Positions 39,669-56,142 of a DNA stretch of 64,000 nucleotides are shown here, one piece after another. The translations under genes were made by a program, and so were the position numbers. How positions within the stretch are numbered: position 1 is the stretch's first letter; every line of letters begins with the position of its first letter. The stretch is from Symbiodinium sp. CCMP2592 (lineage: Eukaryota > Sar > Dinophyceae > Suessiales > Symbiodiniaceae): the NCBI GenBank assembly GCA_905221615.1, contig CAJNDT010005995.1, forward strand, positions 124,001-188,000, in the 5' to 3' direction. The notes beneath the pieces are model-generated. The model was given only the letters and a program-made list of their open reading frames with translations, made no database searches and was not told the DNA's origin.

Positions 39669-39908
39669 GAACCATGCCCAACCTCAACCCCATACACCAA
39701 ATACACAGCCCGAAATCCTTAACCCCAGAAAATGGAAATGGTCTTCTTGAATGAAAAATCTGTAATCGGAATAAGGTAGGAATAAGAAGCAAAAATAATA
39801 CTCTTTTGTGGAAATGGTATTATTAAAGCTCCCACCGGAGGGGCGGGTCTTGCAAAGGACAAACGGCACTCATGCGCATGGCACGCTGCAAGAGCGCCCG
39901 TCCTTTTT

Positions 39909-40140
39909 TGTGAAAAACAGAGCGCGCAGCACTCGGTCTTTTTCTTGAGCCAAAGCGGAGTCGCGTCGGGCTCTGACTGACAGTGAAACACCTTGCAGCT
40001 GTCTGTCTCCAAGCAAAACACTTCAAGCACTAACGAAACGAGACGAAACGAACGTGCAGTCACTTCCTAACTCAAAAGCACTCCTCACAGCTTCAGGCAT
40101 GCCGAAAACATCAGGACATCCAAGGTCAAATGGGATTTTC
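39909..40140 (-). repeat. E2 3' LTR, split one base from its inner end by LINE B
   Basis: 232 bp starting TGTGAAAAACAG and matching 55910-56141 throughout. The missing final base, A, is at 50261 after the LINE and the duplicated 13 bp. The LTR contains CTTGAGCCAAA (39944-39954), an 11-nt match to the reverse complement of the DinoSL 3' end. Confidence 0.9.
40128..40140. repeat. LINE B target-site duplication, left copy
   Basis: AAATGGGATTTTC, identical to 50248-50260. Both copies derive from the end of the E2 LTR, as the uninterrupted LTR at 56129-56141 shows. Confidence 0.9.
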
Positions 40141-40441
40141 TCTCGTACGCTTCGCAGAAGCAGCCCGTAGGCTTGTCCGACATGCACAAATTAACTCCAA
40201 GTATTTTGGAGTCATCCGCGATTGCGGGCATCGCCAAAATGGCGGCAGTGGCTACTCCTACCCTGAGCTACAGGTGCCTGACCTACCTGAGCTACTGGCA
40301 GGAGTGGGTAGCCACTTCCTGGGAGTGGGGAGCCACATCCCAGTGAAACAGGACGAAAGTCCTACAGGGAGGAAGCCTCACCCGGAGGGGAGGAACCCTT
40401 CACCCTGCAGAGCCTCCTGCCTCTGCAAAGGAGAGGGGAGG
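40141..40441 (-). other. LINE B 3' UTR
   Basis: After the ORF3 stop comes a C/G-rich stretch, then GAGTAGCCACTGCCGCCATT with the self-complementary GCCATTTTGGC (40233-40243), then CTCCAAAATACTTGGAG (about 40196-40212), a 6-bp stem hairpin. Such a stem near the end could be the RT recognition site in place of poly(A); this is inference. Confidence 0.5.
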
Positions 40442-42295
40442 CTAGGAGGCCAAAAACCTCCTGACCCGCTCCTGATGCCCGGGGGTCATGAAATGGGCTT
40501 GCATATGTTCGATTGTAGGGCACCTGACCCTACACGCGTAACAAACGAGCCCATCCGGGCTGTGGACTGCACGGTGGGGTCCATACGAGGGTGGTGCCTC
40601 CACATCCTCTACAGGAGCTGATTCCGAAGAAGGCTCCTGAGGGGGGGGGCACCCCGTCCCTCCTGTAGACCCAGCAGCCTCGCTGAGGGAGGGCTCGCTG
40701 GCCTCGGGGACCTCCGGCTGCAGGGCCGAGGGCCCAGTGGCCATGAGGGTCCTTTCACCCTCGCGGAGTTGGTCGCCCATGGGCAACCGCAGGTCCAGGA
40801 CCGCCTCGTCTGGCCAGACCTGGAGGCAGTCCAAACCTCCCAGCTTGAGCCTGTTGCGGCACAGGCTGCGCACCTCAGAGGCGAGGGCTGAGGGCTTCAC
40901 TGCCAGGGCGATCCATCTCGCCTCCGGCGGTTGGCGACACTCTATGTCGAGGCGCATGAACTGGGTCGCCGCCGGGGCACCGCCCGGTACATCGCCCCTG
41001 GTCCTCTTGCGAGGGGCTGCTTCTCCCTCGGGTGGGTGGGGGGGAGGAGGGAGGGGAGGAGGCTCCTCAACCCTCGATGCACTGGCAGGTGCCAGGTGGC
41101 TGGGAGGGGCACTAGGGGCTCCTTTCTCCCTCTGGGTCCCCTCCCTTGGGCCGTAGGAGACCGGGGGGCCAGCAGGCGAGGTCTCACGCTCCGCGGTCTT
41201 AGGTGGCGCCTCCTGAAGAGCAGGATCCTGCTCACTGGCTGTGCCAGCAGGTCCCGCGGAGGACGTGTCGCGGCTGGTGGCCGGACCACCTGTGACTTCC
41301 TCGACCCTGGAAGGGGAGGTTGAGCCTGTTGAGACCGGATCCCCAGAAATGGGGTCATCCTTGGTTGTGGTCTCGTGTTTGGCAGGCACCTCCTCCATGG
41401 GTGCGGCTGTGGGCACCTGGGTGGCCTCCTGGTCGGAGGGAGCCGTCACGGTGCCGAGACCCGGCGCAGCAGAGGGTGGGTCAGGCTCCATCTCCTCTCC
41501 AGAGCTGCTGGGGTCATTGGCCGTCCTGGCCCTGGCCGACGACTTTACCGCCGTCGTTTTTTGAACGATGCGGCGGGACCAGGGCAACATCTCTTCCTGG
41601 TCTTCTGGCTCAAGAGGCTCCGCCGGGGCCGCTGGGGGACTGCTCTCGGAACTGTCCGTAGAGCTGGTTGAGGCTTTAACAGCCTTTGCCGCCCCTTTGC
41701 TGTTACCGCCTGTCCGTCTGGAAGGCGGTGGTGTGCGGACTCTAGGCGGCTTGTCGTCCGGCGAGGCCTTGGGAGGGTTGGACCCATCCCTTTCGGCCTT
41801 TAGGGCCTCCCTCTGGCTGCGAGGGGGACGCTTACGGTTCCGCACAAAGCTGGAAACCGAAACCCGCCTCGCATCGGGGTTTTTCTTGGCACGCTCGTCC
41901 ACATGCTTCCGGTAGGCCTGGACGAGGGCCTTGTCCTCCCTGTGGACGGAGGGCTGTTTGCCTCGCCCTTTAGAAGGGGTGGAACGACCACGCCCTGCTG
42001 AGGAGGGGGGTGGGATGTCCCTGGACCCGCTGGCACCGGTGTCGCCAGCCTGGTCGGTCCAGTCCCACTCGTCCCACCAACCTTGCCAGTCCCGCCATCC
42101 TGTGGTGGGACCATCAGAGCCGCCGGTGTCACCACAAGCTCCAGGGTTGGAGCTGTGGCTGGCGGCCTGCTCTGCAGTGGGCTCAGCTGGGGGCTCCCAA
42201 AAGTCAGCCCCAAACGGTTCTGGTCCGTTCCAAACCATTCGCCAGACCCATCTCCAGGAGTGGTAGCACCACCTCCTTTCCCATTCCCAGCCCAT
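40442..42295 (-). CDS. LINE B ORF3: proline-rich protein with ubiquitin-like segment and C2H2 finger
   Basis: 617 codons from an ATG (MGWEWERRWCYHSWRW). Residues ~60-430 are low-complexity, rich in Pro, Ser, Thr, Glu and Arg. Residues ~445-530 (FMRLDIECRQPPEARWIALA, then LCRNRLKLGGLDCLQVWPD) have the strand-helix-strand rhythm of a beta-grasp/ubiquitin-like fold; this is my inference. The end has CYACRVRCPTIEHMQAHFMTPGH, a CxxC-x12-H-x5-H finger of the U1/matrin kind. LINEs usually have one or two ORFs; a third downstream of ORF2 is unusual. An RNA-binding or nuclear-import role is possible. The frame is intact and nearly fills the space between ORF2 and the 3' UTR. Confidence 0.7.
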   Translation of the reverse strand: MGWEWERRWCYHSWRWVWRMVWNGPEPFGADFWEPPAEPTAEQAASHSSNPGACGDTGGSDGPTTGWRDWQGWWDEWDWTDQAGDTGASGSRDIPPPSSAGRGRSTPSKGRGKQPSVHREDKALVQAYRKHVDERAKKNPDARRVSVSSFVRNRKRPPRSQREALKAERDGSNPPKASPDDKPPRVRTPPPSRRTGGNSKGAAKAVKASTSSTDSSESSPPAAPAEPLEPEDQEEMLPWSRRIVQKTTAVKSSARARTANDPSSSGEEMEPDPPSAAPGLGTVTAPSDQEATQVPTAAPMEEVPAKHETTTKDDPISGDPVSTGSTSPSRVEEVTGGPATSRDTSSAGPAGTASEQDPALQEAPPKTAERETSPAGPPVSYGPREGTQREKGAPSAPPSHLAPASASRVEEPPPLPPPPHPPEGEAAPRKRTRGDVPGGAPAATQFMRLDIECRQPPEARWIALAVKPSALASEVRSLCRNRLKLGGLDCLQVWPDEAVLDLRLPMGDQLREGERTLMATGPSALQPEVPEASEPSLSEAAGSTGGTGCPPPQEPSSESAPVEDVEAPPSYGPHRAVHSPDGLVCYACRVRCPTIEHMQAHFMTPGHQERVRRFLAS

Positions 42296-42469
42296 CTCGA
42301 AAATGAGAGGGCTAAGGCCGGGGGAGCGAGAGGTGCACGTGGGCCATGGCTGCAGCTACTGCGCTTTAAAGGCTTGGGGAGAACTGCGTCTGAGGAAGGT
42401 GTTGTCGTCCCAGGTTAAAAGGGAAAAAGGGGGGGCCCTTAGGGAAAGTGCCTACAAGGCTACGGCTTC

Positions 42470-45400
42470 CTAAGGCTTCCCACCTTGGGCCCAGAACTGC
42501 CGGAGCTTAGGTTGAGTCACAGGCTTGGGCTTCGGCTTGGGCTTCGGGGTGGGTGCAGCAGTCCCTTCCCCAACATCACCAACAGACACAGGAGCCTCAG
42601 GGGCCTTGGGTTGACCTGAGAAAAGGGGGGCAAGGGCGGAGGACTTGGAGCCTGAGGGTCTTGGGGCCTTACAACCAGACGCGCGCGCGGGCTTCTGCTT
42701 TCTCTCCACAGGTTTTGCCTTATCCCCCTCGTGGTGCCCAGAGGTCTCTGTGTGGGCCTCCCTCGCGGTGTGGGAACCACTACCGCTGACCCTAAGGGTC
42801 CTAGAGCTGGCCTGCAGGGTTGACGCGGGCTCCCTCAACGCAGGGGAGGGAACCTCTGACCCTCTGCCCGGCGTTGGTCTCGCTGGGAGGCTCGAGGCCC
42901 GTTTGGCCTTTGTGCTGGTTGCCCCTTGAGTGGTACCTGGCGGGCCTTGGGCAGCGGCTTGCGGAGCAGGCTGGTTGTGCCTGCCTCTTTTGCTTTGGCC
43001 TTTGGAGGAAGACTGATCCGGGGTGCGAGAAGGCTGAGGGGAGGGGACCTCAACCCTGTCCGCACCACTAAGGTCGGCAACCGAGCCGGGGTTGTGAAGG
43101 CGACTCCCCCGCGAGAGACCAGATCCCTCGTTCCCGGCACGTCCTAGCACCTTCTGGAGAGTGTCCTGGGTGGACGTCTCCTTAAGGTATTTGGCCGCCC
43201 ATTGGGTGCCACGTTTTTTGTGGGCGCGGGAGGCCCCCTCGCACTGCGATTTGGCCACAGCCGTGGGGTTAAGCTGCCCTGGCTTGTGGACCGCATAGCA
43301 TTTGGTGCAAAGGAGGACTGCCCCCATGCAGTAGAATGAGTGAGAAGCGTGCAGGCCAAAGTTGCTGAGGTCGGGCAACGGCCGGTGAGCGCACGGCTGT
43401 GCCTCCAGACGCCGGAAGGCCTCAGAAGAATGGGTCTGCTGGATAAAGAGGGAACAAACCTTACAAACCAGGGAGTGGTTGTTGGGGTTCGTATGGCTCC
43501 ACTCAAATTGGTGCCCATGGTGGCCTACCCCTGCCATTAGGGCTTCCAGGCGTTGTTTTTTGTTAATGCCCCCATCCGCGCCAGGTCGATGCTGCCTCTG
43601 AGGAGGTTTGGCCTGTTTCACCTTAAGCCTGGCCTCAGGGCGAGGAGACCTCTTGCCCTTTACCGGGCTGTCCCCGACGGCCTCCCATGGGGGCCTGTCG
43701 GTGCTCAGAAGTAGCACTTCGGCTTTTCGTTGGAGGTGCTGCGCTACCTCTCGCGCCAAATCATCGGCAGGGGATGGATCCCACTGCGGTAAGTGGGCGA
43801 TGGCGGCAAGCGCAGCTTCACCACAAGCGGCGTCAGCCTTGGCGTTGATGGTCCGGCGCCAGCTCTGGTTCTGGTCGGGGCCGAATTCAGCCGCGTGTTC
43901 GGCCTCCGTGGTGTGGGACCTGGTCCACGTGACTTGCGCCAGAGACGCCTTATCAAGAGCCTGGGCCCATACCCAAGGCTTGACAGCGCGTGACTGCTGC
44001 TTGGCCACCGCACTGCAGTCGGAGGTGCAATCAGCCCGCTCCTCCAAGTGCGAGGCGAGCCTTGCGACCGCAAAGCATTCCCCTTCGCACACTGAACTCC
44101 CTGGGGGGAGGAGGCCAGTGAGTTGGCCTACCTGGAGAGGGGCACCCTCCGTCCAGGTGAACGCGCAGATGGCCCAGGCCACTATTCTGCCCCTGGCGTC
44201 GGCAGCGTAGGGCCCGCCAGAGGCGTCCGTCGAATAGAAAAGCCCCTGTGGCCACTTGGCCTCTTTGCAAACACCATCGGCCCGTTCCGACTGTGGGCCC
44301 CAGCAGTACCCCTGAAGCTGGGTGGCCTGAGCCGGCATCAGGCCCCGCTCCCATAGGCAGTCGAATGGGAACTGGGTAGTAAGGCGCTCCCAATGTTTGG
44401 GAGGAGGGGGTGCCTTGCCGCGCCACCATCTGCAGTCGGTGGCGACGTGGTGCTGGGTGAGGGGCACCTTGCACAGGGGGCATTGCTGGCCCGCTTGGAC
44501 ATGCCGGTTTTTAAGGGCTCCCTGCCAGGCCATTCTCAGGGCGGCAGACTTAATCCGCGGAGCCTTTTTCACAAGGGCAGTGGGAACCGTAATGTCCACA
44601 CCTGAGGACAAACTGCTGCAACCCGTTTGGGTACTGATGGCCTTCCGCCGGGCCTTGTGGCAGGCGCTGGTCAGACACGAGAGGATGGCGGACCAATGCC
44701 TCCGAAGGAGGGGGTTGAGGGCCACCACCCCAGAGTCTTCAGGGACCCCTGCCAGGGTAGCAGGACAAAGGTCTGCAGGGAAAAGCCAACGGTCCGGGGT
44801 GGGAGCCACAAGCCCGAGATCCAGCAGATAGGCTATCATGGCCCCCAGCGGTCCACAGACCACTCGCCATCTGTCTTTCCGTTGGAGCTGGGTAGTGAGC
44901 TGCGCCCACGTTCGGTCCAGCTGCTCGCGGTCAGGGAGGCGGACCATCACCCGACAGAGAGCCTTAAAGTGTTGGGTGACCACTGCCACCCGGGGGTCCT
45001 TGACCAGCCAGGCACCAAGTTCCAGCGCGATTTCAACACTGCCCGTGCCAACCTTGCCGGTGATGGCGGCAGCTTGAAAGCGCACCGATTTCATGGTTTT
45101 GGGGCTCACCCCGTGGGCCTGGTGCCCCCAGATCCCCGATGCCAGCACGGACATGGAAAACACCCGGCTGCTGGCCTTGATGTTGCGGACCTTAAGGCTG
45201 CGAAGCTTGCCCAGTCTGGCATTGGCTTTGGTCCGCCGCGCCGTGGAGAGGCGAGTACACCGTCTCCTGCCAGCTGATAGCGTCATTCCCAGGTCTTTGG
45301 CAACACTCTGGATGGGGGGGTCACCCTCTCCCAACTTTCGCCTCAGGGCGCGCTCAGCTTGGGAACTGCTCGCCAGGAAATAGGTCTTGCCGATAGAGAC

Positions 45401-48400
45401 CTGGTACCCGGCGGCAGAAAGCGAGGCATGCAGCCGTCTGAAGACCCTAATGACTGAGTTCGCTGCTTGGTCCGGGCTGTGATGTTCAGTATCTACCGTG
45501 ATGTCGTCTATCCACGTATCTACGTGGTTGACATGCGGTCCAGAGCAACACTGCCGAATCGGCTCGCCCACAGCGAGTTTACTCAGAGTAGGGGCTAAAG
45601 GGCAGCCCGCTATAATTCCGCGGCGAGCGAAAGCAACGGGCGACGCGACTTCGTCGGAAAGGATCACTCTGCCGCCACGATACGATTCCATAGCGAGGAA
45701 AAGCAAAAGATCCGGGAATCCGGCAGTGAGCGCGGCGTCACAGAGAGTGGAGTGAACCACGGTCTCATAAAAGGTACTCAAGTCGACAAACAAAGAGCAC
45801 CGATGGAGACCGTCGACGCGCGCGGCCTCGTAGCAGACGCCTCTCCGGAGCGAGGCGTCATAGGTGGAGCGCTCCGGCAAAGCGCAGTCCCACCAAAGCT
45901 CAGCGCGGTAGTCGCGAAGCCACGCTTCAACGAGGTGCCACCTGGCCTTCATTCCGAGCTTCAGGAGCGAAGACATCAAACCAATCGGTCTTTCGATTTT
46001 CTCGTTTTTAGCGAGCATTGTGAAGATGGTGAAGGTCATCTGCTGTGGCACCTCTCCCGTGGTTTCGATTTCCCTCCAAAACGAAGCCAGGGAGGAAACC
46101 TCACCCGGTGTCAGGGCTTTGAGCAGCTCAAGGGACCAGCCGTCCACACCCGCCGCTTTTAAAGGCAGGCGGCGAATGAGCCGCTGGAACTCTTCCCCAG
46201 TGACGGCCGGGAGTCTCTGGGCTTGAGCAATTGCCCGTTCTTTGAGGCCCTGGATGGGAGGAGGAGGCTGGCCCTTCGACTCCCACAGGCGAGCCCACTG
46301 CTGCAGTCGGAGGTAGGGCCGGGCTTCAGCCGGTTCGTCCACGAATGGGCGGGCAACCTCAACCTCCTGCTTTTTGACCGTACGGAAGAGCGGCCGGAGG
46401 CCTTTCACAGAGGCCCCAGTAAGCCACTCCTGATAGTCCCGTGTCTCGCGCGACCTGGACTCTTCGATGGCGGCCTGGCTCATGCTCCTGACAACAGCGC
46501 GGATCCCATCCCGGGAGTCACCTTTGGTTTCCCCGTTGCAGAGCACCTCTTCCGGACTGAGGCCTGAAAGGCCTGCACTCTCGAGTTTGGCCTGCAACAC
46601 CTCCGCGCACGACGAAGGAAAGCACCGCCGAAGGGCCTCGAAGCGGGCTCTACTGGTGCCTGGGTTGTCCCAGGCAAGCTGCAGTTTTTGCCACCAGGCA
46701 GCCTCCTTGCCGTACCACGGATAGCCCTCCTTCGGCTGCATGAGGGGTTTGTACACGAAGGGCCGGGTGCACCCACGCCCGCCGGGTTTGGTGAAGTGTT
46801 CCACCGCGAACCGGTGGGTGAGTTCGGCAAATTGGCGATTGGCCTGAGTGCCCTGGATCACCTCAGACCCGAAAGCACCAAGCAAAGGGCCGCCACCGGT
46901 GGTTAGCTGAGACAAGGTCGAATCCTGGGTGAGGCTGTCGGTCCGACCAGTGGCCCCGGATTGGGGATCAGTGCTGGCTGTTTTGAGCACCCCAGGAAAC
47001 GCTGGGAGTTGCCTCAAGGCGACTTGGCCCCCGGGGGTATTAAAACAGCACTCCAGTGCAGCGTGAGGCCGGAAGGGCACTTGCCAACTGGCAGCACAGG
47101 TAAACAGGGAAGCGACACTGGTGGAGACCAGGGCGAAATCAAGGCAGTTACCTGTAGTTATCGTCGCCTCCGGTGGGGCGACGATCCGCCCACGAAAGGC
47201 CTCTGGCAGGGTGGTCTCAGCCAGCTCCTGCGATGGGAAATTCCAGTCCCCGACCACTATCCAGTTGGAATTTTGGCGCAGGAGGGGCTTCAGTCGGGCG
47301 AGGACTTCCGGGTTGGGCGCCCCAGTGATGCCAACACCTGATTTGAGGTACAGGTTGACCAGAAGGATAGAATGGCGAACCCTGGGGAGTTCGACCAGCA
47401 AAAAGCCGATCCCTTCGTCAGAGAGGTACCCTCCTCTGAAACGACCCTGTTGATGGATGGGCACAAGTGTGGCCAGTCCCCCTTTGGTGGGTCTGGGGCC
47501 CTCGACAGGGGGGAGGAAAGTATGGTACCCTCTTGCCAAAGCCTCTATGCGCAGTTTTTTGGCACCGTCATCTCCCAGGTGCAGCTCCTGGATGAGAAGG
47601 GGCCCTTTTTGCGGCTGGTGCCATTTGAGAATGTCCGGAGTCCACGTTGTGATGTTGGCACTGACAAACACAACAGACTCCTGACATCCCTGGTGCCCCT
47701 GAGCCGCGAGGTCGTCCAGGAAAGCCGCGGCGGTGAGGGGGTCCAGCCACGAGTGGCCTTGCATGGCCTCGAGGATCTCATAGGAGACCCGGTAACCCAA
47801 GCTGGCCTCATCAGCTCCTTCCAGGGCCTCAGCAAGGGCTAGAGCCTGAGGTTCGGACTTGCTCCAGTCATTGTGCGCCCGAAGCTCTTCTGCGAGCCCT
47901 GCAGCAAGGGCCTGAACTGGATTTGCCTTAGGCTCAAGGTCAGGGAGGGGCTTGCCCGCTTTCCCCCGAGTGCTAGGCCTTCGCTTCCTGAGTCTCGGGG
48001 GGGACTGACCGAGGGAGGTAAGGGGCCGCCGCCCTGCGTCACCAGGGGAAGGAGGCGATGAGGAGCCCTGTTCCTGCGGTCTGGCGCTGGACGGCTCAGG
48101 ACCGGGAGGCCAGGATTGCCAGAAAAGAGAATTGGCCAGTTGCTGCCTCCTAGCCCGGTGAGCCGCACGATGTTTTCGAGTGGACTCCCAGAGGAAGTCC
48201 TGTTGCACTTTACGCCGCCCCCGTGGGCCGTGGGCAATGCTACGGACCCCGCGAGACGGGCTGATGCCTAGGGCCTTGGCCAGGCACAGCACAGGCCTGA
48301 CGGGTGGGGTGAACCCCGAACCCATAGGTTCCCCTTTGCCCCTTGGCAGCGCCTCCAAGGCACCACTTGGGGCAGGGAGCTCCTGCTCAGGGTCCAAGGC

Positions 48401-48583
48401 CCATCCGGTTGGAAAAAATTTTGGCCCAGAGAGCCTGGAGAAATCCTGGGCGCTCTGGTTGTCCGAACACGTTGGCGTGAGGACACCCTGCGACACCAGG
48501 GTTGAAGAAAAGGGGGTGGAAAGCTCACTGCCCCTAATCGAAAGGCCGTGCCCAGGCCTCAGGGAAAGAGGCTGGTAGGGCAC
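42470..48583 (-). CDS. LINE B ORF2: endonuclease, reverse transcriptase, RNase H, zinc fingers
   Basis: About 2,037 codons. Residues ~300-520 are an apurinic-type endonuclease: VSANITTW, IQELHLG, LLVNLYLKSG, VVGDWNFPSQE. RT spans about 800-1100: LFVDLSTFYETVV (motif A), GIIAGCPLAPTLSK (B), TWIDDITVD (C, IDD instead of the usual ADD), GYQVSIGKTYFL (D), KDLGMTLS (E). RNase H lies at about 1445-1580: FYSTDASGG, CEGECFAVARL, TSDCSAV, and a final Asp in NAKADAACGEAA. Around 1705-1780 are CKVCSLF and LLCTKCYAVH pairs, and a basic tail follows. It nicks target DNA and copies the element RNA there. The nominal start is GTG, and the frame opens about 30 codons further up without any ATG, so initiation is non-standard or starts at the first internal Met (about residue 87). 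Confidence 0.9.
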   Translation of the reverse strand: MPYQPLSLRPGHGLSIRGSELSTPFSSTLVSQGVLTPTCSDNQSAQDFSRLSGPKFFPTGWALDPEQELPAPSGALEALPRGKGEPMGSGFTPPVRPVLCLAKALGISPSRGVRSIAHGPRGRRKVQQDFLWESTRKHRAAHRARRQQLANSLFWQSWPPGPEPSSARPQEQGSSSPPSPGDAGRRPLTSLGQSPPRLRKRRPSTRGKAGKPLPDLEPKANPVQALAAGLAEELRAHNDWSKSEPQALALAEALEGADEASLGYRVSYEILEAMQGHSWLDPLTAAAFLDDLAAQGHQGCQESVVFVSANITTWTPDILKWHQPQKGPLLIQELHLGDDGAKKLRIEALARGYHTFLPPVEGPRPTKGGLATLVPIHQQGRFRGGYLSDEGIGFLLVELPRVRHSILLVNLYLKSGVGITGAPNPEVLARLKPLLRQNSNWIVVGDWNFPSQELAETTLPEAFRGRIVAPPEATITTGNCLDFALVSTSVASLFTCAASWQVPFRPHAALECCFNTPGGQVALRQLPAFPGVLKTASTDPQSGATGRTDSLTQDSTLSQLTTGGGPLLGAFGSEVIQGTQANRQFAELTHRFAVEHFTKPGGRGCTRPFVYKPLMQPKEGYPWYGKEAAWWQKLQLAWDNPGTSRARFEALRRCFPSSCAEVLQAKLESAGLSGLSPEEVLCNGETKGDSRDGIRAVVRSMSQAAIEESRSRETRDYQEWLTGASVKGLRPLFRTVKKQEVEVARPFVDEPAEARPYLRLQQWARLWESKGQPPPPIQGLKERAIAQAQRLPAVTGEEFQRLIRRLPLKAAGVDGWSLELLKALTPGEVSSLASFWREIETTGEVPQQMTFTIFTMLAKNEKIERPIGLMSSLLKLGMKARWHLVEAWLRDYRAELWWDCALPERSTYDASLRRGVCYEAARVDGLHRCSLFVDLSTFYETVVHSTLCDAALTAGFPDLLLFLAMESYRGGRVILSDEVASPVAFARRGIIAGCPLAPTLSKLAVGEPIRQCCSGPHVNHVDTWIDDITVDTEHHSPDQAANSVIRVFRRLHASLSAAGYQVSIGKTYFLASSSQAERALRRKLGEGDPPIQSVAKDLGMTLSAGRRRCTRLSTARRTKANARLGKLRSLKVRNIKASSRVFSMSVLASGIWGHQAHGVSPKTMKSVRFQAAAITGKVGTGSVEIALELGAWLVKDPRVAVVTQHFKALCRVMVRLPDREQLDRTWAQLTTQLQRKDRWRVVCGPLGAMIAYLLDLGLVAPTPDRWLFPADLCPATLAGVPEDSGVVALNPLLRRHWSAILSCLTSACHKARRKAISTQTGCSSLSSGVDITVPTALVKKAPRIKSAALRMAWQGALKNRHVQAGQQCPLCKVPLTQHHVATDCRWWRGKAPPPPKHWERLTTQFPFDCLWERGLMPAQATQLQGYCWGPQSERADGVCKEAKWPQGLFYSTDASGGPYAADARGRIVAWAICAFTWTEGAPLQVGQLTGLLPPGSSVCEGECFAVARLASHLEERADCTSDCSAVAKQQSRAVKPWVWAQALDKASLAQVTWTRSHTTEAEHAAEFGPDQNQSWRRTINAKADAACGEAALAAIAHLPQWDPSPADDLAREVAQHLQRKAEVLLLSTDRPPWEAVGDSPVKGKRSPRPEARLKVKQAKPPQRQHRPGADGGINKKQRLEALMAGVGHHGHQFEWSHTNPNNHSLVCKVCSLFIQQTHSSEAFRRLEAQPCAHRPLPDLSNFGLHASHSFYCMGAVLLCTKCYAVHKPGQLNPTAVAKSQCEGASRAHKKRGTQWAAKYLKETSTQDTLQKVLGRAGNEGSGLSRGSRLHNPGSVADLSGADRVEVPSPQPSRTPDQSSSKGQSKRGRHNQPAPQAAAQGPPGTTQGATSTKAKRASSLPARPTPGRGSEVPSPALREPASTLQASSRTLRVSGSGSHTAREAHTETSGHHEGDKAKPVERKQKPARASGCKAPRPSGSKSSALAPLFSGQPKAPEAPVSVGDVGEGTAAPTPKPKPKPKPVTQPKLRQFWAQGGKP

Positions 48584-48913
48584 CTTAGCACCTCGGGCCG
48601 GCGCTGGCTCCCAACGCAGCGCCGCCGGGGTTTTGTGAAAGACTTTGCATCGCGCAAAACAGGTGAGTGCTGCCTAAATCGTGCAGATCACACTTGCAAA
48701 ACTTGCAAAAAACTCTACTCTTGTGTGAACCCTGGCCACGGTGGGGTGGCGAACCACTCCCCCTCGGTAAAAGAGCAAGTTGGTTGCTAGAAAAGGCCTG
48801 CAAAACCTCCATTGACGGTTGGAGAAGGGCCTGATTGGGCGGCTGCCCTTGCAAAATCTGCCTGGGGGCCCGTGGCCCAGAAAGGGCCAGGGGGAAGGCA
48901 GGGTTCCCCTGGC

Positions 48914-49948
48914 CTAGGCGCCCCTATTCGGGGTTGTCGCTGCCTCCGGCTTCGTCCCTTCCAAAGGTGTGGGGCGCTTCCCATGCGGATCGGTGCGGGC
49001 AGGCCCATACATGGGGGGCATCTCTCGAGGGAAGTACTCATCATGCCCTCGGAAACCCACGATGAAGGGGTCCGGGGGGAGGTCCTCCTTCCCGACCAAG
49101 GCAGCCTTCATTTTGGCGCGGGTGGCTTCATTGAGCTCATGACCAGCCTCCGAAAGGACCGCCTCCAAGGCGCTGAAGGCGGTGCTGGTGGAGTCCGCCG
49201 TCATCTCTTTGAAAGCCTTGGCCGTCTCCTGGATCTCGACATCCTTGGCTTTGATGTCCTTGTCGACCTGGTCCACGTCCCCAATGAGCTTTTCCAGCTC
49301 CTGCTTGAGCTTGTCCGCTCGGGCCTGGAGCTTGGCCTTCTTCTCCACCAGATTCTTCATCTGGTTGGTGGCCTTCTTGAAGTCACTGACACACCTGGTC
49401 AGCTTCTCCTGGGGCGTGGGCTCCGGCCGGTCGAGGTCCTCATCTGGTGGAGGGGGGATCCCCGCGGCCTCCAAAAGGGTCTGGACGTGGAGCCCTGCCC
49501 CCGCGTAGACCACGGCCCTGGCAGCGTTGTACTCCTTCTCGGTCATCCTACCCTTAAGGAGGGACTGGAGGTCCAGTCCTGGTGGGGGTGGCGGTGGCCC
49601 TTTCGGCCGAGGTGGGCTGTACCCGACCTCCTGAAAGGCTTTCTGGGCAGCCTCTGGCAGGTCTTTCCAAAGACCCGCAAGCACCGCGCCGACTTTGCCA
49701 CCTGGTAGGTTCTTAGAACCCTTTCCCTCTCCTTTTCCCTTGCCTTTGGTGCGACCGTCCTCCCAGACAGCTCGGGGGCTCTGGGAGTTCTCGGCCCGGG
49801 CTTCCTTGTTTGCTTGCTGCTTTGCCAGCTGCTTCTGCCAGTTTCTGCCGCAGTACGCACAGTGGGTGTTTTCACCCGACTCGACCTGGCGTTTCCAGGC
49901 CCAGTGGTACCCACAGGCGCACGGGATCCACTTGGGAGTGCGCGGCAT
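48914..49948 (-). CDS. LINE B ORF1: zinc-ribbon and coiled-coil protein
   Basis: 344 codons from ATG (MPRTPKWIPCACGYHWAWKR). Residues 9-40 carry CAC..GENTHCAYCGRNW, a four-Cys zinc ribbon. A Lys/Gln-rich linker follows, then PPRPKGPPPPPPGLDLQSLL. Residues ~180-270 are strongly coiled-coil (LVEKKAKLQARADKLKQELE, then KDIKAKDVEIQETAKAFKEM). LINE ORF1 proteins coat the RNA and trimerise through coiled coils; this one fits with a zinc ribbon in place of CCHC knuckles. It is the first ORF after the spliced leader and ~277 nt of leader. Confidence 0.82.
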   Translation of the reverse strand: MPRTPKWIPCACGYHWAWKRQVESGENTHCAYCGRNWQKQLAKQQANKEARAENSQSPRAVWEDGRTKGKGKGEGKGSKNLPGGKVGAVLAGLWKDLPEAAQKAFQEVGYSPPRPKGPPPPPPGLDLQSLLKGRMTEKEYNAARAVVYAGAGLHVQTLLEAAGIPPPPDEDLDRPEPTPQEKLTRCVSDFKKATNQMKNLVEKKAKLQARADKLKQELEKLIGDVDQVDKDIKAKDVEIQETAKAFKEMTADSTSTAFSALEAVLSEAGHELNEATRAKMKAALVGKEDLPPDPFIVGFRGHDEYFPREMPPMYGPARTDPHGKRPTPLEGTKPEAATTPNRGA

Positions 49949-50225
49949 GGCTGCAAGCTGGTGTGGAAACCACTACCAGAAGTAGTGGCTGCAGGAAACA
50001 AGCAAGGAGTGGTGCCCACTTCCAAGCTTTAGAAGTGCACACGGCAAGAGGAGGATCGACCTCACTCAGATCGTGCAGTGAACAGCCTACCGGGCCGCCC
50101 ACCAAACCCTTGCCTGCTGTCAGGCCTACGACCTTTACCAGGTTGGGTTTGGGGCCTCTTTGGAACCTCTAGAAAAGTAGGTCCCAAGGCTGGCCACGAC
50201 GGCACTGCAACGTCTGAGCCGAAAA

Positions 50226-50247
50226 CTTGAGCCAAAATGGCTACGGA
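50226..50247 (-). promoter_or_regulatory. Complete DinoSL (spliced leader) at the LINE B 5' end
   Basis: The minus strand reads TCCGTAGCCATT.. to ..TTGGCTCAAG, all 22 nt of the published dinoflagellate leader with T as its variable first base. It directly adjoins the 13-bp duplication at 50248. It is followed by TTTTCGGCTC and not by GT, so this is a spliced product and not an SL RNA gene. Confidence 0.95.
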
Positions 50248-50260
50248 AAATGGGATTTTC
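50248..50260. repeat. LINE B target-site duplication, right copy
   Basis: AAATGGGATTTTC, matching 40128-40140. The following A at 50261 completes the E2 LTR, and the E2 internal region (CACCCCCTCTTGG) starts at 50262. Confidence 0.9.
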
Positions 50261-51434
50261 ACACCCCCTCTTGGACTGATGCGGCACCTAGTGTCTTTTG
50301 AGCACACTTTACAAGCTCTAGACCTAGCTTTTCAGGATAGAACCCTGAATCTTTTAATTCCACCTGTACATGTTCATGCACTTGGTCACATTCCCGTTTA
50401 GGAAACACTTTGACCCAGCGTTTACTGTTCGTGGCAAAGTACCACCGTTTAAACACACAGTCGTACGCACAGCGGTCTACCACAATACCCTCAGACAGCC
50501 CCAATTCTGAAGCAACCTGAAGATACCGCGGGTCCTTCCAGAGGTCGTTCTGCAGAGGCCACTCTTGAGTCAACAACAAGCGTTCACTCCGAGCAACCGG
50601 TTTCAACAAACCTTCAAGAAGTTCCCAAGCACGCTGATGCAACTTCTTCTTCTCTTCCCACTTCTCTTGACTGTACTTGCGCCACCCGCGGTAACGCAAA
50701 CGACACCCAGTGGTACAGGGAGTAGAGATATGGCAGTAGATCTTCGTCTTCAAGCCACAACTCAACACAGAAAACAACTCCTTCAGAAAACACTGCGTCT
50801 GCTCAGAACAAAAGTCAAGCTTTTCAGTGACACCCACATAGGGAATCTCAAGCTTCTCACATGCCTTCTGTAAGGCACTTTCTTCCTGGCAGAACAGTTC
50901 AACGACCACAAAGGTGACCTGGTTCTTCGCCACCGCTTCACACAGTGAAACGTACTCCTCAGGAACAAAAGAACGGTTTACCGGCTCTTCTGCAGTCAGG
51001 CGTTCCAGCTCAAACTCACCCAACTCGTCTTCAAAAGAAACCAAACCGGTTACCTCGTAGAGGTTGTCCAGCTGCTCCTGAAAGACCATACTCTTGGTCA
51101 GGCCGTCGGAGGCATTATATGCTCCGGCCACAAACTCGAGGATCACTCTCCCCGACTGAACCATCTGCTGCAGGAAAGCACACCGCAACTCCAGGTGACG
51201 AACCCTTCTCAAGAGTCCCTCCATTGAAGCAATCGCCTTTGCCGACTCAGAATCGGTACAAATCCGGATCCAAAAGCTTCCGGTATCATCCTCAGGCAAT
51301 CCCTCCAAAAACGAATCTTTTTGCACCCTGCGGTTGGTCGCACGGTAGGTCTCAGATAGAGACAGAGCGGGAGCGCCTCTTGGAGCCGCGTCCATGTTGC
51401 GTTGACCCTTGGTCTGGAGGGCCATACGAACCAC
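50259..51434 (-). CDS. E2 C-terminal polyprotein: partial RNase H plus methyltransferase-like domain
   Basis: About 391 codons, nominal GTG start. Residues ~55-118 (RICTDSESAKAIAS, RHLELRCAFLQQMV, NASDGLTKSM) are the second half of a copia RNase H; the first catalytic strand is lost. Residues ~175-370 form a separate domain: VVELFCQEESALQKACEK .. YVGVTE resembles motif I of C5-cytosine methyltransferases (LF.G.G), HISTPCTTGC stands where PPC motif IV would be, and LLLTQEWPL may match motif VI. Key residues differ (no PPCQ, no ENV), so activity is doubtful. Copia elements carrying DNA methyltransferases have been reported in dinoflagellates. The TGA stop is made by the first bases of the LTR. 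Confidence 0.65.
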   Translation of the reverse strand: MVRMALQTKGQRNMDAAPRGAPALSLSETYRATNRRVQKDSFLEGLPEDDTGSFWIRICTDSESAKAIASMEGLLRRVRHLELRCAFLQQMVQSGRVILEFVAGAYNASDGLTKSMVFQEQLDNLYEVTGLVSFEDELGEFELERLTAEEPVNRSFVPEEYVSLCEAVAKNQVTFVVVELFCQEESALQKACEKLEIPYVGVTEKLDFCSEQTQCFLKELFSVLSCGLKTKIYCHISTPCTTGCRLRYRGWRKYSQEKWEEKKKLHQRAWELLEGLLKPVARSERLLLTQEWPLQNDLWKDPRYLQVASELGLSEGIVVDRCAYDCVFKRWYFATNSKRWVKVFPKRECDQVHEHVQVELKDSGFYPEKLGLELVKCAQKTLGAASVQEGV

Positions 51435-52233
51435 CGAGTACCCGTTGTGTTGGGCGGATCGGTGCCTTGCTCTTTGGATCGGTCGGCGGGGCTTGCAGCA
51501 AAAGCGATCTGTGGTATCCCAGAGGCGGCTGCGGTCCCAGCAAAAACGATCCTTGGTACCCCAACGGCGGGGGCGGCAACGGCGGCAGCGGCACTGCTGG
51601 CGCTGCTGGCGCTGGCAAGGCCGGCATAGCCTTCACAGGCACCATCTTCGGAGGCGCCACCGGCCTCACTGGCATCGCCTTCACTGGCACCAAAGCAGGA
51701 TCCACTCCAGGGGTCTCCGGTGCCGCTGGCGCGGCTCTTTTCGAAGGCTTTGGCGGCGAGGGAGAAACTTTGGCCGGCGATCTGGACGGTTTCACTTTGG
51801 GCGGCGGTGGCCCATCCTTGGGCGGCGGTGGCCCATCCTTGGGCTGCGGTGGCCCATCCGGAATCACAATAACGGCCGGCTTCAAGGTCACAGCCGGCCT
51901 GGTCGCTGTCTTTGGCTTTGGAGCCAAACGAGGCTTTCCACGTGGATCTGAGGGCGCCGGTGTCATCGGCACCTCCTCCTCGGCAGCAGCTGGTGCCACC
52001 TTTTCCACCACAGCCTCGGCCTCGGCTTCCACAACCGCTTCGGACAGCGGCCTTCTTCTTCTTCCGCTTTTTCTTCGCAGGTACAGGAACAGCTTCTTGG
52101 GCATCGACCGTGGTTTCCGCAGTCCCCACTGCCACAAGGAGGTCCACTGCACCCTGCTCCGGCTCCTGGGCCGGCCGTCCTTCGGATCTTTCGTCCAAAC
52201 GGCTTTGCACCCATTCCAGGGCACCTTCGGCAA
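51352..52233 (-). CDS. E2 proline/alanine-rich region
   Basis: An open frame with VVEAEAEAVVEKVAPAAAEE, a threefold GPPPPKD repeat (20-bp DNA repeat GGCGGCGGTGGCCCATCCTT at about 51800-51860), and many Pro-Ala-Val-Lys stretches. It appears to continue the basic protein from 53008 after a frameshift near 52040. Its distal part overlaps the RNase H frame by about 80 bp. No catalytic domain is present. Confidence 0.45.
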   Translation of the reverse strand: MPKVPWNGCKAVWTKDPKDGRPRSRSRVQWTSLWQWGLRKPRSMPKKLFLYLRRKSGRRRRPLSEAVVEAEAEAVVEKVAPAAAEEEVPMTPAPSDPRGKPRLAPKPKTATRPAVTLKPAVIVIPDGPPQPKDGPPPPKDGPPPPKVKPSRSPAKVSPSPPKPSKRAAPAAPETPGVDPALVPVKAMPVRPVAPPKMVPVKAMPALPAPAAPAVPLPPLPPPPLGYQGSFLLGPQPPLGYHRSLLLQAPPTDPKSKAPIRPTQRVLGGSYGPPDQGSTQHGRGSKRRSRSVSI

Positions 52234-53008
52234 GCGCCTTGCCCTTCGCTACAGCACGGGCGTGCTGCTTCTTTCTCACAAGCCGCTTGGCCTTCACGAC
52301 CTTCTTCTCCGTCCGCACCACCTGCATCAGCTGGCGATTGTAGCCCATCGTCACTGGACCACCATCCGCTGGCTTCCGCTCGTGCTTCCGGGCCTTCTTC
52401 TTCGAGGTGGGCGCGACATACAAATGTGGATTCGGAAAAGTAGGGTCCACAGTGTCCGCCTCGGCTTCCTCGGCTGCTGCAGCCTCCTTCAAGGCCTTCG
52501 TGGCCTTCTTTGCTGCACCACGGACCTTCTTCAAGGCCTTCGTGGCTTCCTTTGTCGCACGAGATGCCCGCTTCTTCTTGCGCTTGGGCACTTTCTCGAC
52601 GGATTTCTCTGCAGCATCCGGGGCCTCGGCAACGTCCGTGGCCACACCAGACTCGGGGCGCCATTTGCCCCAGCCTTCTTCCTCCTCTTCTTCCTCCAGC
52701 TTTGACGGCAGCGGCGATTTCTGCTGTGGCGATTTTGGCTGTGAAGGCACGGCCATTTTGTGCCACTCGCGAGAAATTTTGGTGAGCTCGTCGTGCTCCT
52801 CCATCATTTGCCGCTCGCTCTCTTCTCGAGCCGTGCTTTCTATCACCGCTGCGACCGTCACCACATCGGATCGTCGGGCAGACGCAGCAGACTTCATGGC
52901 GGTTAGGTCCGCCACCCTCTGCGACATAATAGCCGCCTGCGACGACCTTTGTTCCTCGTCCGTCGAGGATACCTGGGGCTCTGGCTGCTTCTTTCGTCGA
53001 CGCCCCAT
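52000..53008 (-). CDS. E2 middle ORF: lysine-rich coiled-coil protein replacing integrase/RT
   Basis: Starts at ATG 53008 (MGRRRKKQPEPQVSSTDEEQ) and runs in a frame different from gag. It includes RQMMEEHDELTKISREWHKM, poly-Glu, and KALKKVRGAAKKATKALKEA helices, with many basic runs. The frame stays open further (to 51209), but after about 52040 the composition turns Gly/Arg/Cys-rich and the better reading shifts to the proline-rich frame. No integrase or RT motif is present. It shares a 27-bp identity (52247-52273) with the gag region (54297-54323), both coding KKQHARAVA. It could be a captured gene piece or a product of template switching. Confidence 0.5.
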
Positions 53009-53039
53009 CGCACACCACGAGGAGCGTGAAAAACAGAAG

Positions 53040-53310
53040 CTTGAGCACCAAACTACGATGCACGACCCTTGCACACCCTTGCAGTCTCCACTGGAAACCA
53101 CCTTGCACAGAACTCGCGACACTCACTGCACTACCTCGCAGCCTCCGCAGGGAACCGCCTTGCAAATCCTGACAAAACCCTGGTCCTGAAACCTTGCACG
53201 CACACTCCCTCACGACACGCACTGCACTACCTTGCAGCCTCCGCAGGGAACCGCCTCGCAAATCCTGAAGAAACCCTAACCCTGAAACCTCGCAAGCACA
53301 CTCACTCACT
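53040..53310. repeat. Imperfect ~100-bp tandem repeat within E2
   Basis: Two good copies and one worn copy of CACTGCACTACCTYGCAGCC, then TCCGCAGGGAACCGCC, then TTGCAAATCCTGA. In the gag frame it codes a Cys/Gly/Arg-rich stretch with a hydrophobic segment. It lies just before the start of the middle ORF. Confidence 0.7.
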
Positions 53311-53369
53311 AAGGTCCACAGGGAGCACAGCACGCCAACGCAAGCCATGCACCACAAGCTCACAACACT

Positions 53370-55865
53370 TATCATCATCGACCCAGCGGTCCACGACGGC
53401 TGAGCCTCAGAATCTTTCTTGCCACTTCTGCTACCACAGCCAAAGCGGTCAAGCTCACAGCGTTCAAGAGACTCCAGAGCAGCACCCTCACAGACCGAAA
53501 CGGCACTACCACCGTGCGTCCTCAAGCTCCTCAGCAGAAACTTAAAAGGCGTGTACTCTAGGCTCTTCACAGACTCCAAAGACCTTTGCTCCTGAGCTTT
53601 CTGGGCTTTCTGGGCTTTCGTGGCTTTCGGGGGTTTCGCGGTTTCAGGCTTTTCCGTGGCTTTCGGGGGTTTCGTGGTTTCAGGCTTTTCCGTTGCTTTC
53701 GGGGACGACGAGGGCTTCAAAGCATCAACCTCCATCTTATCCCCAGAATCCTTCAAAGCAGCAACCGCGTACCAAGCGCGATCCTTGACAGTCAACCGAA
53801 TGCGTTTCTTGTTCTTCTTGTTGAAAATATGAGGTGTGTTGGTGAGCATGGTGTGCCATCCTCTCTGCCAAGCCACAAACGGTGACAAGACATTGAAATC
53901 TAGGTTCGTGATCAAGCAATGCTCTAGCACCACCACAAGCTTCCCAAAACGAACGCGAACGTCACACACCTTCAACACTTCAATCATGTCGTTGGAGGCA
54001 TTCGACAGCGTGGGCTTAAAATCATAAGTGCGAAGGACTTCATACTTCTCGAAGCAGGAGACCGACATGCAATGAGAAGTAGCACCGCTATCCACTAGCC
54101 AGTAGCTATCTTGCGACTCAATGCCAACTAAGCACACTCTGTGCTCAACGGTCACTCGGTGCGCCGCAGCAGGCACCTCAGGTGTCGAAGGAGTCGTCCT
54201 CAAGACGCCACCGCGGGCATCAACCGGAATCAACTCGCCAGAAGCGCGAAGGGCCATCACAGTCTCTCCCTCCGGCTCCTCTTCTGCTTCGCCATCCGCT
54301 ACAGCACGGGCGTGCTGCTTCTTGGTCTTCTTGTCCTTGCCCTTATCCTTGCCATGCTTGCCTTTGCCTTTCTCTTTGCCCTTTCCTTTGTCTTTGTCGC
54401 CCTGGCCTTTGCCCTTGGGCTTGTTGCTCTTGTCGCCTTTGCCCTGCTTCTTCTCATCTGCGATCCTCTGGCGGCACTCTTCTTGATAGTGCCCTTTCTT
54501 CTCGCAGTACCAGCAGACAATCTGGGACTTGTCCTTGGCACCGCCGGCTTTTCCTCCTTTCGCGCCTTTGCCGTCTTTCCCGCCTTTGTCTCCTTTGAGG
54601 CCACGCAAACCACCACTTGGCAGCTCCACCATGCGCAGCTGCTCCTCGTAAAAACGAAGACTCTCCGCCATCTCGGTCCAACTGCCAGTCTTGCCATGCA
54701 GCACCAAGTACTCTCTCGCTTGCACTGACACAGCTTGCAGCAAAATGGCCGATCTGTCGGCGGCGTTCAAGCAGAGGTCGGGAAAACGCACCAGCTTTTT
54801 ATCTCCCTTGGAGATTTCGTCCTCGAGGAAACGCACAACTTCCAGAGGGCGCTTCAGCGCTGCAGTCTTTGTGTGGAGCTTTAGCATTTCGTCTCTGATA
54901 TACACCGCCTCCATGCGGCTGTTCACAGAGTACTGCCGGTAAAGCTCTCTCACACCCTCATATCCTGCAGCTGCATTGCTCTGGCGTGTCGAAACACTCC
55001 GGAGGATCTCCAATCCTCTGTCCCACTTTGCCAAAGCTTGCTGCAACAGGTAAAAAAGACGTGCACTTCTTCCCGCAGTGTCACTGGGCAAAGTAACCTG
55101 CTGGATCTCACCAGCAACAAACAAGCACTGCCTTAGCTCGCCAACAAAGGCGTCATCGGTCAATGCTAGCCAGCTGGACAGCACTTCCAGAAAGCGGTGG
55201 AACTCCTCAAGCTCGCGGATCCGGCCTTGCTTCATCTCACCAGCATTGATGAGAGGCAGGGGTGGCAGATACTTCTCTGCACGACCACCAAAACTCGAAA
55301 AGCTTCCAGAACTCGCAGCAGGCCCACTCGGAGGGGCAACAAGCGACCCAGTAGGCGCCGTCGGCGCTGCTCCAGAACTGCTAGCAGCCACTGCAGCTGC
55401 AAAGGGGTCCGAAGACACCTTTCGCCGATCCTCGTCGGCTTTCCGTCTGGCTTCTTCCTCGTCCAAACGGCGGTTCAAGAGGGTCAACTGAGCACTCTGA
55501 GCTTGCATCAGAAAGTTCATCTGATTCTGCTGTTGCTGTAAAGCCGTGTTCTGGTTGTTCAGCATCTGCAACATCAACTGCTGCAGTTGTTCACCTCCCA
55601 ACGCAGGGTTCGGAGGAACCGGACACTGAGCAGGAGCTGCCGGCGCTACAGCCGGACCACTAACACCTTCTGGCACTGTTGCAGAACCACTCGCAGGTGC
55701 AGCCGCTGCTGCTTGCTGAGCTGTCGGCGACCCAACAGGACTGTTCACCGGTCCTACAGGTCCCACGGGTCCTGGTCCAAACAGGTCGAAGTCCATGCCT
55801 TCCTCAGGCACAGGGACGTTCTGAGCAGGAGTCTCACTACTCCCACCTGGCAAGGGCGAGGCCAT
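53370..55865 (-). CDS. E2 gag-protease polyprotein
   Basis: ATG start at 55865 (MASPLPGGSSETPAQ). The N-terminus is Pro/Ala-rich, then a Gln-rich coiled coil (residues ~95-150). A capsid-like helical region (~205-420) includes FHRFLEVLSSWLALTDD. A CCHC knuckle, CWYCEKKGHYQEEC, is near residue 450, followed by a Lys/Gly-rich spacer. The protease site is YWLVDSGATSHCMS near 590. The frame remains open to 51963 (1,300 codons), but beyond about 53370 it is repeat-derived and then shadows the middle ORF, so I place the likely end earlier; the exact end is uncertain. Gag packages the RNA; the protease cuts the polyprotein. Confidence 0.8.
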
Positions 55866-55909: not shown

Positions 55910-56142
55910 TGTGAAAAACAGAGCGCGCAGCACTCGGTCTTTTTCTTGAGCCAAAGCGGAGTCGCGTCGGGCTCTGACTGACAGTGAAACACCTTGCAGC
56001 TGTCTGTCTCCAAGCAAAACACTTCAAGCACTAACGAAACGAGACGAAACGAACGTGCAGTCACTTCCTAACTCAAAAGCACTCCTCACAGCTTCAGGCA
56101 TGCCGAAAACATCAGGACATCCAAGGTCAAATGGGATTTTCA
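55910..56142 (-). repeat. E2 5' LTR
   Basis: 233 bp from TGTGAAAAACAG to GGGATTTTCA. It shows the uninterrupted sequence that LINE B hit in the other LTR. The 11-nt spliced-leader-like word is at 55945-55955. Confidence 0.9.

Follow-up and report, generated by a model that had tools for sequence, protein, structure and literature searches.

The host spliced leader forms the 5' end of a LINE family

LINEs of a multi-copy family in Symbiodinium sp. CCMP2592 end, at the DNA level, in the spliced leader (SL) of their dinoflagellate host. In the window (the whole stretch of 64,000 nucleotides that was analyzed), a LINE on the minus strand begins with the exact 22-nt DinoSL (D=T). No other DinoSL match exists in the window at up to three mismatches, and none was obtained in 100 shuffles. 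A chance match was ruled out by these shuffles together with the complete absence of reversed-control junctions genome-wide. The sequence directly 3' of the DinoSL is TTTTCG; thus, there is no GT donor at the join between SL and leader. The first-pass annotation had described a 13-bp duplication followed by all 22 nucleotides of the DinoSL and by leader sequence without GT, and this order was confirmed by the exact match and the repeat.

The LINE extends from 50247 to 40141 (10,107 bp), has no LTRs of its own and carries the target duplication on both flanks (Table 1). A third copy of the 13-mer is located at 56129-56141. Here the 5' LTR of the copia-type element that received the LINE is uninterrupted, and the empty site can be read as TGAAAATCCCATTT/GACC. 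The insertion point lies 14 bases into the 3' LTR of this element, next to AAGAGGGGGTG, which we take to be its polypurine tract. Since the two copia LTRs do not differ at any of the 232 comparable bases, the LINE insertion is young. The first T of the window SL could be an added base rather than the D of the SL. In the remains of the copia gag-pol, Pol_BBD was detected with an E value of 0.005, which is under the Pfam cut-off. Some 35 nt from its end, the copia LTR also holds TTTGGCTCAAG, which equals the final 11 nt of the SL (55945-55955 and 39944-39954, minus strand); the copia RNA may be trans-spliced as well, or the likeness may be due to chance.

Table 1. Features of the SL-headed LINE and of the copia-type element that carries it (window positions)
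Feature	Positions	Strand	Basis
Complete 22-nt DinoSL (D=T), LINE start	50226..50247	-	sequence match
TTTTCGGCTCAG, likely older degenerate SL relict	50214..50225	-	SL-likeness of leader head
LINE leader / 5' UTR	49949..50225	-	sequence; other copies
ORF1, 344 aa	48914..49948	-	no Pfam match
ORF2, 2037 aa, putative EEP endonuclease and reverse transcriptase	42470..48583	-	Pfam, relatives
Third open frame, 617 aa, inside element	40442..42295	-	no Pfam match
LINE 3' tail, ends GCGTACGAGA, without poly(A)	40141..40180	-	3' ends compared
Target duplication, 5' side (LTR bases 2-14)	50248..50260	-	13-mer repeat
Target duplication, 3' side, just beyond LINE 3' end	40128..40140	-	13-mer repeat
Presumed polypurine tract AAGAGGGGGTG, directly before 3' LTR start (T at 50261)	50262..50272	-	
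Rest of 3' LTR, downstream of LINE	39909..40140	-	identical to 5' LTR
5' LTR, 233 bp, uninterrupted (empty site)	55910..56142	-	LTR comparison
Copia-type gag-pol remains	50259..55865	-	open frames 51963-55865, 50259-51434

The element was assigned to the LINEs by the reverse transcriptase encoded in ORF2. RVT_1 was found there with an E value of 3.3e-6 and 27.4 bits (Pfam cut-off 29.6), and relatives at 62-65% identity bear PF00078. The endonuclease domain Exo_endo_phos gave a weak match under the Pfam cut-off (E 0.0033); the closest relative (P0001) bears PF03372 in addition to PF00078. Comparison of ORF2 with solved structures yielded no match. A ribozyme-made 5' end was rejected: a search of 39800-50400 against Rfam up to E 1 detected no ribozyme, including HDV-like ones, and gave two unrelated matches far under their gathering scores.

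An SL piece precedes the leader in nearly all copies read

To collect further copies, two queries were used. A query combining leader and SL gave 223 candidate places, and the best 40 of these 223 were scored, showing leader identities of 94-100%. A second, SL-free query consisting of the first 25 leader bases gave 124 exact sites, with none for the reversed control; 100 of these 124 sites were read, 29 of which were already in hand (matched by eye: 26 of the first 39 copies as well as L077, L100 and L105) while 71 were new. The resulting set of 111 copies comprises the window, the 39 other best-scoring places and the 71 from the list made without the SL. Both queries are blind to copies truncated within the leader, one of which was met at the same target (L071).

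The last 8 nt of the SL, GGCTCAAG, are present at most 16 nt upstream of the leader in 110 of the 111 copies, and the remaining copy (L153) has an SL piece with one base changed, reading TTGGCTCAAT. In none of the 111 does the element continue beyond the leader into shared non-SL sequence, nor does any copy lack an SL piece when L153 is counted as having one, so that the possibility of a one-off event, raised in the first-pass annotation, is refuted and the SL end is a trait of the family. In 105 copies at least eight exact SL bases abut the leader directly; CTCAAG (L063, L122), AG (L123), T (L173) or TT (L178) was found between GGCTCAAG and the leader. As a correction to the first-pass annotation, most copies retain just the last 8-12 nt of the SL. 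The commonest piece comprises 9 nt (TGGCTCAAG, 62 of 111), followed by one of 11 nt (26 of 111). Full or nearly full SLs are present in only 5 of the 111 copies (the window, L029, L113, L139 and L144), and thus many SL pieces may be inherited and not freshly added. The SL of L029 contains two extra T; those of L139 and L144 are one T short and have identical upstream sequence, which makes them look like one event.

Insertions lie at few target sequences, a third of them at copia LTR starts

Few target sequences precede 106 of the 111 copies, namely GAAAATCCCATTT, GAAAAGTTTGCTC, GATTTTCAATCC, GAAAAGTTGTACC and variants of these. L173 has a one-base variant, and no recognised target was found for L062, L130, L153 and L157, L130 and L157 having the same upstream sequence. 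A polypurine tract stands directly before the target in 37 of the 111 copies, where the target thus represents the first bases of a copia 3' LTR; in 69 the target lies behind other, mostly recurrent sequence that resembles 3' LINE tails by eye. Upstream of three polypurine-tract targets, one each for the types GAAAAGTTTGCTC, GATTTTCAATCC and GAAAAGTTGTACC, the copia reverse transcriptase RVT_2 is encoded, the stretches read falling short of the 5' LTR. The target GAAAATCCCATTT was shown to be LTR sequence by the LTR pair of the window, whose pol remains match Pfam weakly. Three rare target variants, in six copies, are located behind tails each time and never behind a polypurine tract. The same target type was found at both ends of the window LINE and of seven further copies (paired by distance, by eye). 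All recognised copia contexts are at the polypurine-tract side, which may reflect targeting or survival.

3' ends were read by eye at 20 of 41 listed places and in the window, regardless of the sequence that follows. Ten of these 21 ends run into an SL-headed element, three into a copia LTR and one into a truncated LINE; in five the target is followed by other sequence, and two have no target. No poly(A) is present at the LINE 3' ends, which terminate at the target; this fits an RNA that reads through. When the tails were folded singly, short hairpins were obtained, for which we claim no common structure. Many stacked elements among L031-L107 have a GC-rich short hairpin about 25-35 nt before the tail end (by eye).

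SL-headed elements are stacked mostly in one orientation

To find target-SL junctions genome-wide, we searched for patterns consisting of the target, up to 8 bases and GGCTCAAG. The two patterns gave 149 and 118 sites, respectively (267 in total), and the reversed control patterns gave none. Among the 100 sites listed per pattern, 108 of 112 neighbours less than 60 kb apart have the same orientation (57/57 for the first and 51/55 for the second pattern). The four opposite-orientation pairs (C377:106354/111774, C1128:43509/54053, C2613:547089/564843 and C4959:331098/333351) may represent separate insertions, rearrangements or assembly joins. Of 57 spacings, 19 measure 9.0-10.6 kb and 11 measure 2.1-2.3 kb. 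In L088 and L090 a 2.25-kb SL-headed unit with another leader is located at the same target; the two copies read contain no ATG-begun frame longer than 118 aa on the strand of the unit, and it is possibly a non-autonomous follower of the LINEs.

Behind the SL piece, 8 to 10 leader groups were distinguished at the junctions read, depending on the threshold, and at least seven other leaders occur among the stacked elements with the same SL start. In ten leader groups, the likeness to the 3' half of the SL is greater for the first 20 bases than for windows further into the leader (mean score 6.9 vs 3.9; Mann-Whitney p = 2e-6, an optimistic value, as some leader groups are related; one group scores only 5). 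The head of the window leader scores 8 and its later windows 3-4. Such SL-like leader heads would fit a ladder of ever older relicts.

Origin of the SL end

The reading that explains these data best, to which we assign a probability of about 80%, is that the LINEs ride on transcripts of copia elements or neighbouring LINEs and that SL trans-splicing provides their 5' end. From the SL ends, the target, the stacking, the tandem relicts and the duplications, all of which are seen in the DNA, we infer read-through transcription, trans-splicing in each cycle and joining by microhomology. The window LINE would be a young member of a group that inserts where copia 3' LTRs begin, beside the polypurine tract, and also at the duplicated targets of earlier insertions, which would result in a head-to-tail pile-up. 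RNA would then run on from the copia element, or from a LINE upstream, into the next LINE, and addition of the SL at an AG at the LINE start would cut it free. This acceptor AG could be the end of an inherited SL relict or lie within the SL or the target. Target-primed reverse transcription would then make a cDNA from the spliced RNA, and the end of this cDNA, complementary to the SL, would be joined to the target, usually with loss of the first 10-14 SL nucleotides and often at short matches such as CCATTT. The RNA copied into the window was, by the order of its parts, probably trans-spliced.

Several copies bear on single steps. Tandem SL relicts were detected in L032, L056, L063, L113, L122 and L096, which suggests that copies already bearing an SL were transcribed from an upstream start, went through another round of trans-splicing and were then copied. 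In L113 a full SL is followed by CCATTTTGGCTCAAG, the product expected if an AG inside an older full SL served as acceptor. L042 contains an SL piece, then TTTGCTCTGGCTCAAG, then the leader, as if the SL had been spliced after the AG of the target GAAAAG beside the source copy; such an RNA must have begun upstream of the LINE. With the target ...CCCATTT, the loss of SL bases often coincides with the CCATTT match in the SL, where the cDNA may have annealed to the target. Some joins carry an extra T or a repeated CATTT, which would suggest slippage.

A LINE at the start of the 3' LTR is located 3' of the copia genes and should travel on the copia transcript, while one in the 5' LTR should not. 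Between the two sources of transcription named in the first-pass annotation, an internal promoter and read-through from the insertion site, the latter is now better supported. Trans-splicing of the read-through RNA likely renews the 5' end in each round, and a dependence on copia transcription is plausible. According to passages in PMC11453091, some tandem gene arrays of dinoflagellates yield joint transcripts, which are separated by SL trans-splicing. More tentatively, and at slightly less than even odds, the elements may form a guild of promoterless LINEs with short non-coding followers, whose one-way arrays are transcribed from the copia promoter and cut by the SL into single messages. If so, the arrays would occupy the border between polypurine tract and 3' LTR of copia elements as well as the places behind one another, and the host leader would provide the cap, the 5' end, a renewable splice acceptor and the CCATTT annealing partner.

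As an alternative, an ancestor could have gained an SL fragment once, which is now the fixed 5' end, the rare full SLs being later additions. The recurrence of the 9-nt piece TGGCTCAAG in 62 copies and of some whole junctions across several contexts would agree with this. Yet 70 junctions, a set that was selected for GGCTCAAG and was not used for frequencies, show 53 distinct combinations with a 5' boundary between 8 and 22 nt of the SL, and full SLs with differing first bases stand behind two leaders (D=T in the window; D=G plus an extra T in L081, which has another leader). The tandem relicts and the target-spliced copy require renewed trans-splicing, and the leader heads resemble still older relicts. 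We therefore consider a single gain unlikely.

It is less probable still that these are ordinary retroposed mRNAs, the LINE being just another message among the dinoflagellate retrogenes. Retrogenes with SL relicts are described as common in passages of PMC6050394 and PMC12014239, and SL-headed inserts with duplications but without a matched reverse-transcriptase frame are indeed present in this genome (L009, L011). The family studied here, in contrast, is multi-copy and has its own reverse transcriptase, recurrent targets and tails without poly(A).

The short matches and the extra T at many junctions could also indicate that the reverse transcriptase jumped, at the end of synthesis, from the LINE RNA to SL RNA or to an SL-tipped mRNA, or that it slipped. 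We give such a jump very little credit: in 105 of 111 copies the SL exon in front of the leader stops at its splice boundary, whereas SL RNA as template should bring intron bases, and the ladders of relicts are better explained by splicing. Insertion of the LINE into an SL RNA gene, suggested by the SL at the 5' junction, was ruled out by the empty LTR site, as copia LTR lies upstream, the SL is absent from the 3' end and the duplication is LTR sequence.

Comparison with known systems

LINEs normally have a promoter within the RNA that is copied, or use a borrowed one and release their 5' end by a ribozyme. Here, host trans-splicing appears to take over this role, rebuilding the same end in every round. 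NeSL-1, SLACS and CZAR, the SL-exon-targeting LINEs of nematodes and trypanosomatids, likewise adjoin an SL; they enter SL genes, whereas the LINEs described here carry the SL along and were found at an LTR target in the window and at recurrent non-SL targets elsewhere. The trypanosomatid hosts of L1Tc/ingi also trans-splice, and Tx1 LINEs insert in a transposon.

According to passages in PMC4035085, L1Tc/ingi elements are LINEs freed from co-transcripts as well, by an HDV-like ribozyme; they differ in having their own promoter (Pr77) and ribozyme and unspliced transcripts (in part of PMC8190864), while an SL piece is found here. R1/SART/TRAS and Tx1 share a fixed target in repeats, SART1 targeting telomeric repeats (a passage in PMC7265360); here, the target is the copia 3' LTR start and the 5' end is the host SL. 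Nested LINE clusters similar to our stacks are formed by Zepp in Coccomyxa/Chlorella, where a section of PMC3446292 reports one probably centromeric cluster per chromosome; the stacks described here are known from contigs.

Relict leaders mark retrogenes in dinoflagellates, as stated in passages of PMC6050394, PMC12014239, PMC7245778 and PMC8045281. The DinoRL retrogenes treated in a part of PMC12014239 likewise have the SL or its 3' part in DNA via reverse-transcribed trans-spliced RNA, and tandem relicts including CTCAAG. The present copies share with them an SL or relict directly upstream of the insert (110 of 111, with L153 one base off). They differ in that DinoRL leaders head host genes, whereas the window LINE is not derived from the mRNA of a host gene, has a reverse transcriptase of its own and belongs to an autonomous family with a recurrent 5' end and recurrent targets. 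In the portions of the open-licence literature that were searched, including PMC10235124, PMC3942190, PMC3229502 and PMC11453091, neither a LINE family with an SL 5' end nor a LINE aimed at copia LTR starts is described. The mediator of dinoflagellate retroposition is called unknown in a passage of a 2018 review, with Ty1/copia favoured (PMC6050394). The presence of young LINE copies that end at the SL suggests a LINE machinery that, in this genome, reaches the very end of SL-tipped RNA. Symbiodiniaceae LINEs are taken as likely remnants of an ancient expansion in a passage of PMC8045281, with which the leader identities of 94-100% (best 40 of 223) contrast.

SL-headed inserts elsewhere in the genome

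The genome contains 429 exact 21-nt SL sites, 20 of which were taken in list order for inspection; nine frames were scanned. Downstream of the SL, a frame with RVT_1 is present at five of the 20 (L010, L012, L014, L018 and L019), and the RVT_1 frames of these five are matched by L016 and L020. Thus, LINEs headed by the SL also occur outside the LTR target. Target duplications are clear at several of the 20 sites; none was found at the five endonuclease-reverse transcriptase LINEs, so that their junctions are unproved. The L012 leader has three copies at 100, 92 and 83% identity; since the other 37 listed matches are short (36-77 bases) and mainly SL plus relicts, this leader is unfit as a second multi-copy test.

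Two SL-headed inserts, L009:1001-3160 and L011:1001-3424, have clear duplications of 12 and 13 bp, respectively. Neither showed a match to the LINE reverse-transcriptase frames, L011 contains a 334-aa frame, and both inserts are likely retrogenes. CCCTAAA telomere-like repeats are present at most 30 nt upstream in 8 of the 20 full SL sites (L010, L011, L012, L017, L019, L021, L023 and L025), and the duplications consist of such repeats in L011, L023 and L025; SL-headed inserts may thus favour interstitial telomere-like DNA. The insert L027:1001-9336 has three long frames of 668, 418 and 1390 aa and is DIRS/Ngaro-like by eye; an FVDD motif is present in the 1390-aa frame, for which Pfam gave no match. 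Its left repeat carries an exact SL and its right repeat a degenerate one.
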